A stretch of 64,000 bases of DNA. Origin: Gloeobacter violaceus PCC 7421. GTDB taxonomy: Bacteria; Cyanobacteriota; Cyanobacteriia; Gloeobacterales; Gloeobacteraceae. The translations under genes were made by a program, and so were the position numbers. Under the pieces are notes generated by a model. That model had not been told where the DNA came from. It made no database searches and saw only the letters and a list, made by a program, of their open reading frames with translations. How positions within the stretch are numbered: the first letter of the stretch is position 1; every line of letters begins with the position of its first letter. The stretch lies in assembly GCF_000011385.1 (NCBI RefSeq), contig NC_005125.1:4216001-4280000 (forward strand). The letters are read 5' to 3'. Shown one piece after another: positions 38,416-40,724 of this stretch.

Positions 38416-38811
38416 TTAAACTGTGGCCGATGAGGCTGGGGCGAGCAGTTCGATGGGCAGGCCGTCGGGGTCTACTACAAAGGCAACTGTGAAGGTCCGA
38501 TCGCCAATCTGCTGCGGGCGGGGTTCGAGCAGGACCGGGACGCCCGCCTGTTGCAGGCGCTCCACGAGCGCGGGTACATCCTCGACTTCAAATGAAGTGT
38601 GGTAGTAACCGGTGTAGTGCTCGTCGAACCAGCTTTCGGGGGCGGGTTTGGGTTCGGGAATTTGAATCAGTTCGATGCGGCCCAGGGGGCCTGTCAGCCA
38701 ACAGGCGAGGGTCATGCCGGTGGTGAAGCGCACCTCGACGGTGAAACCGAGGAGTTCGTAAAAGGCCATCGCGCGAAAAATGTCGGCGGTGCGGATCGAG
38801 ACGTGGTGCAT
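38416..38811 (-). CDS. VOC-superfamily (glyoxalase/bleomycin-resistance fold) protein
   Basis: A 131-residue protein of two beta-alpha-beta-beta-beta modules. MHHVSIRTADIFRAMAFYEL (metal-ligand His near the start), GRIELIQIP, YYHTSFEVEDVPALVERLQQ (second-module His) and VDPDGLPIELLA (final Glu). This is the metal-site pattern of lactoylglutathione lyase relatives. The reaction is not predictable. Its ATG overlaps the stop of the upstream gene (TGATG). Confidence 0.85.
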   Translation of the reverse strand: MHHVSIRTADIFRAMAFYELLGFTVEVRFTTGMTLACWLTGPLGRIELIQIPEPKPAPESWFDEHYTGYYHTSFEVEDVPALVERLQQAGVPVLLEPRPQQIGDRTFTVAFVVDPDGLPIELLAPASSATV

Positions 38812-39119
38812 CAGCTTTTTCCTTCGAGGCGGGCGATGAGCAACTCCGCCACGGCGTTGGCCACGACAAATTCGCTGCAGGCGGTCATCGCATAATCGTC
38901 GTGGCGCATCTCGGCAAGCAGGACAATGTGGATGGAAGCGAGCAGATCCTCGCCCTCCAGACGCTGGCGGGCGTAAATCGATGCGGCGCGCTCGGCAATG
39001 TGGGGGTGGATCGCCTCGGCCAGAAATTCGCGGTCGAGCCAGGCGAGCAGCGCCCCCGCGAGCCAGCGTCTTTCGGACTCCACGTCGGTGGCCGGGGGCA
39101 GCCAGATGTCCTCTACCAT
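38811..39119 (-). CDS. conserved protein of unknown function upstream of the VOC gene
   Basis: A 102-residue, all-helical looking protein: MVEDIWLPPATDVESERRWL, ALLAWLDREFLAEAIHPHIA, SIHIVLLAEMRHDDYAMTAC. I think it is a conserved cyanobacterial protein but cannot name it. Overlap with the VOC gene by one base shows an operon. Confidence 0.65.
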   Translation of the reverse strand: MVEDIWLPPATDVESERRWLAGALLAWLDREFLAEAIHPHIAERAASIYARQRLEGEDLLASIHIVLLAEMRHDDYAMTACSEFVVANAVAELLIARLEGKS

Positions 39120-39226: not shown

Positions 39227-39529
39227 ATGGAAGAAGCTTCCGCGCGGATGAGCTGGTTCGATGAAGGGCAGGGCCTGACGCACCTGTCGGAATATTTTCA
39301 GCGCATGGAGTCCTGGCAACAAGCGATCGCCGACGGCGTCATCACCCCCGAAGAAATTCGTGAGCAGGCGCAACGGGTGATCGGGTTGCTCAAAGAGGTG
39401 GAGCCGCTGGTGGACGCGGCCGAACGGCGGACGATCACCGAGACTCTCTACGAAATGGCCGTGCTGGGGGCGATGCAGACTTCCGCCGTCTCCGCTTCGC
39501 TGCGGACGGCTGCCAAGGGGGAAACATGA
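39227..39529 (+). CDS. gene A of a three-gene operon: helical domain protein
   Basis: A 100-residue protein, MEEASARMSWFDEGQGLTHL. Its core EYFQRMESWQQAIADGVITP and the following EEIREQAQRVIGLLKEVEPL are predicted helices. A near copy of this core forms the C-terminal third of the third gene in the operon (39984-40724). No membrane span. Its stop overlaps the next start (ATGA). Not recognised from any named family. Confidence 0.75.
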   Translation: MEEASARMSWFDEGQGLTHLSEYFQRMESWQQAIADGVITPEEIREQAQRVIGLLKEVEPLVDAAERRTITETLYEMAVLGAMQTSAVSASLRTAAKGET

Positions 39530-39972
39530 AAGTCAAGGCGTACAAGATTCCCGATACTTCGCCCTCATTCCTGGCGACGGCCATCGAGTCGTGGTTTCGC
39601 TCCGAAGGGTTCGAGGCGCAGAGTTTCGCCGGTCCGGAGGGGACTTACGTGATCCAGGGGCGCAAGGACAACTTTCTGCGTTTTATCGTGGGGCTTTCGG
39701 CGGCGCTCACCGTCACGGTCGGTACGCAGCCGGACGGGGCGCTCACCGTGGCCATCGGTGCGGGCAGCTGGGTGGACAAGTTTCTGGCCGGCTTTGCGGG
39801 GGTGTTTTTGTTTGCTCCCCTCGCCTTTACCGCCGCCTACGGCGTCTGGAAGCAGGACAACCTCGAAGACAAGCTCTGGGAACACATCGCCGGGCGTCTG
39901 CCCGGAGCGGTCGAAGTGCCGGTGCAAGTTCCCGCCCCCCAGTTTCACCCGGTCAAGCTGACCCCCTCCTGA
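39526..39972 (+). CDS. gene B of a three-gene operon: membrane-anchored alpha/beta domain protein
   Basis: A 148-residue protein. MKVKAYKIPDTSPSFLATAI and ESWFRSEGFEAQSFAGPEGT lead to DNFLRFIVGLSAALTVTVG and a second hydrophobic segment FLAGFAGVFLFAPLAFTAAY, then a charged helix (NLEDKLWEHIAGRLPG). The whole N-terminal two-thirds of the third gene is a paralogue of it. The second hydrophobic stretch is probably a membrane anchor. It overlaps gene A by 4 bases. Confidence 0.75.
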   Translation: MKVKAYKIPDTSPSFLATAIESWFRSEGFEAQSFAGPEGTYVIQGRKDNFLRFIVGLSAALTVTVGTQPDGALTVAIGAGSWVDKFLAGFAGVFLFAPLAFTAAYGVWKQDNLEDKLWEHIAGRLPGAVEVPVQVPAPQFHPVKLTPS

Positions 39973-39983
39973 GGACATTCACC

Positions 39984-40724
39984 ATGCAAACCCGTACCTA
40001 CAGTGCGCCGGGGATCACGGCCGAGGCCCTCGCCGAGAGGGTGCGCACCTGGTTCGTTGAAAAAGAATTCGAAACCCAGTCGTTTGCTACGGCGGGCGGT
40101 GGCCAGATCGTGCAGGGCTACCGCGACGATTTTTGGCGGGTGGCGGTGGGGCTCGCTGCGGCCCTGACCGTGCAAATCAAACCGCTGCCGGGGGACACTC
40201 TCGAAGTGAACATCGGGGGCGGTGCCTGGGGCGACAAGCTCTTCGTAGCCGGGATCGGCCTGCTGCTCTTTTTGCCGTTGGTGCTGCCCGCCGCCTGGGG
40301 CACCTGGGAGCAGTACCGCCTCGACAAGGACATCTGGGAAGCGATCGAAGCGGCGCTCCCGGCGGGCAGCTCCCCGGTCGCATCTGCCCCCGCCGAAGCT
40401 GCTGCCCCCGCCGAATTGCCCGACACCTGGTTCAACGAGGAGACCAACGAGATCTACTCGGTGCAGTTTTTTCAGCGCATGGAGTCGTGGCAGCGCGCCA
40501 TCGCCGACGGCCGCATCGACCAGGAAGAGATCCAGATCCAGGGCGAGCGGGTGACGGACCTGCTCAAGCGTCTGGAACCTACCCTCAGCGACGAAGCCCA
40601 CGCCAAGCTCACCCAGGTGTTTCGCGAAATGGCGGTTCTGCAAGGGATGCAGTCGTTCGTGCTGGTGCAGCAGATGGGCAGTGTCTCCGCCTCAAGCCCA
40701 ACCCCGCAGCCGGTAAACGAGTAG
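39984..40724 (+). CDS. gene C of a three-gene operon: fusion of paralogues of genes B and A
   Basis: A 246-residue protein. Residues 1-135 correspond to gene B: TWFVEKEFETQSFATAGGGQ, DDFWRVAVGLAAALTVQIKP, AGIGLLLFLPLVLPAAWGTW. Residues 160-236 correspond to gene A: QFFQRMESWQRAIADGRIDQ and REMAVLQGMQSF. A Pro/Ala linker joins them. The order is B then A, the reverse of the gene order. It starts 11 bases after gene B. The 3' end overlaps the convergent YdcF-like gene. Confidence 0.8.
   Translation: MQTRTYSAPGITAEALAERVRTWFVEKEFETQSFATAGGGQIVQGYRDDFWRVAVGLAAALTVQIKPLPGDTLEVNIGGGAWGDKLFVAGIGLLLFLPLVLPAAWGTWEQYRLDKDIWEAIEAALPAGSSPVASAPAEAAAPAELPDTWFNEETNEIYSVQFFQRMESWQRAIADGRIDQEEIQIQGERVTDLLKRLEPTLSDEAHAKLTQVFREMAVLQGMQSFVLVQQMGSVSASSPTPQPVNE

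Follow-up and report, generated by a model that had tools for sequence, protein, structure and literature searches.

Three small genes that follow one another in Gloeobacter violaceus PCC 7421 raise the question of why the same two protein modules are encoded both separately (genes A and B) and joined in one chain (gene C), and whether the three products work together. The genes lie in a window of 64 000 nt, the whole stretch of DNA that was analysed, which occupies positions 4,216,001–4,280,000 of a single-contig genome of 4,659,019 bases. SHOCT domains, which the A module is likely to resemble, are widespread and their job is obscure, partly for want of simple test cases. An operon in which the same adaptor-like module is free, missing and fused would be an unusually clean test case for SHOCT-like domains, and it raises the question of whether a free adaptor (A) binds an orphan domain (B) as the fused one does.

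Gene organization and distribution

A first-pass annotation of the window had given three reading frames, with 4 bases shared by A and B and a gap of 11 bases between B and C, and all of this was confirmed (Table 1). The ATGA overlap makes translational coupling of A and B likely; three of the eight genomes compared have a gap of 3–12 nt at this point, and the spacing between B and C ranged from 2 to 13 nt across genomes.

Table 1. Positions in the window of the genes and features discussed in the text
Feature	Position	Strand	Basis
Gene A, 100 aa, SHOCT-like helical domain on its own	39227..39529	+	Homology with C residues 144–235; conserved in eight genomes
Gene B, 148 aa, predicted helix-grip-type domain, hydrophobic hairpin and conserved tail	39526..39972	+	Homology with C residues 1–137
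Gene C, 246 aa, a B-like and an A-like domain joined by a linker	39984..40724	+	Profile alignments
A/B ATGA stop/start overlap	39526..39529	+	Sequence; −4 overlap in five of eight genomes
SHOCT-like core of A, residues 27–47, MESWQQAIADGVITPEEIREQ	39305..39367	+	hhalign to SHOCT repeats; weak DUF1707 matches
SHOCT-like core of C, residues 166–186	40479..40541	+	Alignment register with gene A; match to SHOCT repeats
Hydrophobic stretch of B, residues 83–104, probable membrane-dipping hairpin	39772..39837	+	Hydropathy; loop of low confidence that joins strand 5 to helix 2 in the C model
Hydrophobic stretch of C, residues 83–104	40230..40295	+	Hydropathy; fold model
Pro-rich tail of B, residues 127–148, ..EVPVQVPAPQFHPVKLTPS	39904..39969	+	Alignment; occupies the place of the A domain of C
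B-like half of C, residues 1–127	39984..40364	+	Profile alignment; AF2 strands and helices 2–124
A-like half of C, residues 147–233, three predicted helices	40422..40682	+	AF2 model; profile alignment

A search of 96 genomes, including that from which the window was taken, revealed the full A-B-C order in eight of the nine Gloeobacterales genomes (G000–G004 and G006–G008), representing three GTDB families. The assembly of the ninth (G005) is fragmented, with pieces of A and C at contig ends. Outside the Gloeobacterales this search gave a single weak match, which is probably due to chance. Named genomes with matches included Aphanocapsa lilacina HA4352-LM1, Gloeobacterales ES-bin-313 and Candidatus Cyanaurora vandensis, and a contig search with C as the query returned Gloeobacterales relatives only. 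A-B-C also marks the lineage of the thylakoid-less cyanobacteria, which branch earliest. Since the genes are conserved in the three families and their dN/dS ratios are low (A 0.09–0.13, B 0.04–0.10, C 0.17–0.26), A, B and C are real coding genes under purifying selection, B being the best conserved of the three.

The neighbourhood of the locus gave no functional clue, its flanks being common only within Gloeobacter and partly with one other genus (G004). Upstream of A, on the reverse strand (positions 38416–39119), lies a divergent gene pair encoding a VOC-family-looking protein and a 102-aa protein of no assigned family; this pair stays with the operon in Gloeobacter and G004. A toxin–antitoxin, defence or phage origin of the locus was considered and rejected, as PADLOC and PHROG gave no useful match and no plasmid, phage or viral-contig relative was found.

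A, B and C always occurred together at the main locus, as the first-pass annotation had anticipated. The replacement of A and B by C, which it had also envisaged, was never seen; what was found instead were second loci in two genomes (G007 and G008), in which A lies directly upstream of C, without B, at a distance of 7 bases in one genome and about 105 in the other. A and C are therefore the constant pair, and this gives rise to the main rival to a joint assembly of all three proteins, namely that A is a regulator or decoy which competes with the tail of C for an intramolecular or dimer contact, B being an accessory paralogue that is not needed. The A proteins and the C tails also stay distinct clades across the Gloeobacterales, as different jobs would predict. 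However, B is always kept at the main locus and is the gene under the strongest constraint, which argues that B matters, and we regard regulation of C by A without a part for B as somewhat unlikely.

Homology of the separate and joined modules

Both halves of C proved to be paralogous with A and B, as had been claimed. In profile–profile comparisons made with hhalign, B aligned with the N-terminal part of C (residues 1–137) at E 5e-31, and A aligned with the C-terminal 92 residues (144–235) at E 4e-32, the comparison on which the fusion view had been said to stand or fall. Single sequences were sufficient to detect both relationships by BLASTP (A versus C, 47 % over 77 aa, E 7e-21; B versus C, 41 % over 126 aa, E 1e-28). 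When the whole genome was queried with C, the only significant matches besides C itself were A, B and another A-like gene.

Neither the A domain nor the B domain had a family match over the cut-off in Pfam or NCBIfam, in agreement with the earlier statement that they belong to no named family, and no solved structure related by sequence was found for either. The B domain is thus one that Pfam and NCBIfam do not cover.

B-domain relatives in other cyanobacteria and the order of the fusion

A profile of B and the N-terminal half of C identified one clear and two partial further relatives among 244 Cyanobacteriota genomes. After the new relatives had been added to the profile, 12 other cyanobacterial genomes, out of 385 searched, were positive. 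The N-domains from these other cyanobacteria matched the Gloeobacterales profile at hhalign E 2.4e-9 over 103 columns (score 57, compared with a maximum of 24 after shuffling), and one member, L052, bridged the two groups at about 1e-14 to 1e-16. The sequence link that places C and B with the N-domain of these proteins is solid.

In all 12 of these genomes, three or four SHOCT-type repeats, recognized by their motif, come after the B domain, and Pfam SHOCT (PF09851) was confirmed in the three such proteins that were scanned, with E values down to 1.6e-22; they are called B-SHOCT proteins here. They resemble C in the N-terminal domain (e.g. L052, L053 and L054; E 2.4e-9 to 1e-14) and in the order of their parts, which is a globular domain, a hydrophobic stretch and a helical tail. 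They differ in that the tail consists of three or four canonical SHOCT repeats, whereas that of C is one longer A domain, and in that they are always encoded by one gene without conserved neighbours; no common neighbours of the B-SHOCT genes were found among the loci compared. The N-domain encoded at the B-SHOCT loci (L052–L054 and L065–L076) carries no Pfam or NCBIfam name, is of the predicted helix-grip type and has a Gly-rich hydrophobic loop. When the tails were compared, that of C was SHOCT-like, scoring below the cut-off, and B had only its conserved Pro-rich tail.

Because other cyanobacteria carry the B domain followed by SHOCT-type helices, the order found in C appears to be the usual and ancestral one. 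The description of C as a reversed-order fusion, in the sense of a derived state, therefore did not hold; on the simplest reading, the architecture of C is the usual one, and A and B correspond to its modules, each encoded by a gene of its own. A-B-C is a Gloeobacterales-specific operon and a variant of a B-domain/SHOCT protein type that is sporadic in other cyanobacteria, and is not categorically new.

The same domain order is what would be expected if a C-type gene had been duplicated and partly lost, leaving A, B and C as mere tandem paralogues that have separate jobs and form no complex: A and B each resemble what remains of a single module, and the A-like gene D stands alone beside coaBC in six genomes. 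This explanation has to contend with the strict, ordered co-retention of all three genes in the three families, with frames that overlap or nearly do so, and with the strong purifying selection on such short pieces, and it is quite unlikely. In phylogenetic trees the A proteins stood apart from the C tails and from the D genes, each of which made up a clade of its own, and the N-domains of B and C formed separate clades, that of C being weakly supported (73/85). These separate clades suggest that the split between A/B and C probably predates the radiation of the Gloeobacterales. The trees do not root this split and do not show which of the B and C halves is older.

The A domain as a probable SHOCT-like helical module

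The conserved core of the A domain is W-x-x-A-x-A-D-G-x-[IV]-[TDE]-x-x-E-[IL]. Gly37 and Glu43 of A were invariant in 20 sequences, forming part of an ungapped helix-turn-helix in which the Glu follows six residues after the Gly. This core aligned with the SHOCT repeats of the B-SHOCT proteins without gaps and in register (hhalign P 4.4e-4), and none of 200 column shuffles gave as good a result. Weak matches to DUF1707 (PF08044), a SHOCT-like model, were detected in three of the 20 A-domain members, the best of which (E 0.011) was below the cut-off. A and C had no match to Pfam SHOCT (PF09851) over the gathering cut-off, and none was listed among the 20 members.

The A domain shares with SHOCT and DUF1707 (PF09851 and PF08044) a helix-Gly-x-[ILV]-[ST]-x-x-Glu-helix core, with the invariant Gly and a Glu at +6, and the SHOCT-like part of C is C-terminal, as in most SHOCT proteins. 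A differs from SHOCT by an additional WF[DN] segment at the N-terminal side and by a long third helix; it remains below the cut-off and exists as a stand-alone protein. Since motif, register and position after the B domain are the same, the A domain is likely to be SHOCT-like, although it is not a SHOCT member by the Pfam threshold and a helix-G-x-I-T-x-x-E turn may arise by convergence.

Weak matches to the A domain in other Cyanobacteriota were coiled coils or short partial matches and were apparently due to chance. The only protein over the SHOCT cut-off in the genome of the window (G000:C1:3355212-3355292, L082) is short, with a SHOCT tail and an N-terminal part that looks TM2-like by eye.

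Predicted fold of the B domain and its hydrophobic stretch

An AF2 model of C was built from 39 aligned rows, including B-, A-, D- and SHOCT-type rows, and had a mean pLDDT of 76; an earlier model from 10 close sequences had been poor (pLDDT 59). The N-terminal half was modelled as a strand (residues 2–7), a helix (13–26), four strands (30–35, 41–46, 59–68 and 72–81), the hydrophobic stretch (about 82–102), which took no defined form, and a helix (100–124), followed by a linker and helices at 158–174, 180–200 and 203–236. Confidence within residues 1–124 was mostly about 80–97, and lower at 51–60 and in the hydrophobic stretch (81–110).

Foldseek found nothing below E 0.001 with this model. 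Alignment of residues 1–130 by VIA-align gave a Z score of 8.7 with the Chk1 KA1 domain (91 of 92 residues) and 8.0–8.5 with several other KA1 domains, values which, for a model of pLDDT 76, are close to the background commonly seen when a model has no clear Foldseek match. The folds of the spermine synthase N-domain, SRPBCC-like proteins, Flpp3 and DUF302 matched the same residues at Z of about 8–9, and for this reason the assignment stops at ‘helix-grip type’, a KA1/helix-grip-type fold being predicted. The B domain is predicted to share a beta-alpha-beta4-alpha arrangement with KA1 (PF02149) and other helix-grip folds (BamC N-terminal domain, Flpp3 and DUF302), at Z up to about 8.7. It differs from them in that no sequence similarity could be detected (Pfam scans at E 10 gave no KA1 match), in the hydrophobic loop that precedes its last helix and in the lack of a kinase or lipoprotein context.

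The first-pass annotation had placed a membrane span in B and C. A plain span is doubtful, as the model returns the next helix onto the same sheet and the counterpart stretch in the SHOCT-type relatives is rich in Gly and less hydrophobic. The hydrophobic stretch is more likely to form a membrane-dipping hairpin or loop than a span, since the helix that follows it belongs to the domain.

The same stretch bears on the proposal of a toxin–antitoxin-like or lysis module, in which a small soluble A would neutralize a holin-like membrane protein B or C. The gene sizes and the overlap would suit such a module, and C residues 79–123 gave a weak match to a holin family (PHROG 2877, E 0.0045), but this match spans only the hydrophobic stretch and the next helix, the genes are vertically conserved and there is no antitoxin DNA-binding domain. 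Such a module is very unlikely.

The tail of B (EV.V..P...F.PV.L) is strongly conserved and is possibly a binding motif.

A possible submembrane scaffold

The reading that we favour, with a probability of roughly 0.4, is that A, B and C co-assemble into a small submembrane scaffold composed of a membrane-seated B module and a SHOCT-like A adaptor. The hydrophobic loop of the B module, which contains Gly and Pro and lies between the last strand and the last helix, would dip into the cytoplasmic face of the membrane, and the A module (helix-Gly-x-[IV]-[TDE]-x-x-Glu-helix with an extra helix) would act as the adaptor. C would hold both modules in cis; A and B would be separated copies made together from coupled genes. 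B and C would be seated at the inner leaflet via their hairpins, and free A would pack where the tail of C packs, on B, which has no tail domain, and/or on C. Packing of A would set the size or state of the assembly, A doing in trans what the tail of C does in cis. The scaffold could bring partners together at the plasma membrane, where photosynthesis also takes place in the Gloeobacterales.

An A–B complex, as first suggested, is plausible by the classical fusion argument, since A and B are encoded separately and are fused in C. The proposal of a submembrane scaffold draws on published suggestions that SHOCT-like domains tether a variety of domains to the inner leaflet and build up membrane complexes (PMC11237479), and on the frequent occurrence of SHOCT with oligomeric membrane-linked domains such as band 7 and bacterial PH (PMC3581485); the sole published test of SHOCT self-oligomerization was negative (PMC3581485). 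A further-reaching version, in which a three-subunit scaffold with modules in trans (A and B) and in cis (C) replaces the one-gene B-SHOCT protein and possibly organizes the thylakoid-free photosynthetic membrane, seems to us rather improbable.

The fourth paralogue, D

D is a protein of 88 aa that consists of the A domain only (G000:C1:1669577-1669843, equivalent to L049:7578-7844; also L043 and L045–L048). In six Gloeobacterales genomes the gene and the end of coaBC overlap, the shared part being 4 bases long in five of them and about 23 in one, which suggests that D, as a SHOCT-like protein, is translationally coupled to coenzyme A biosynthesis.
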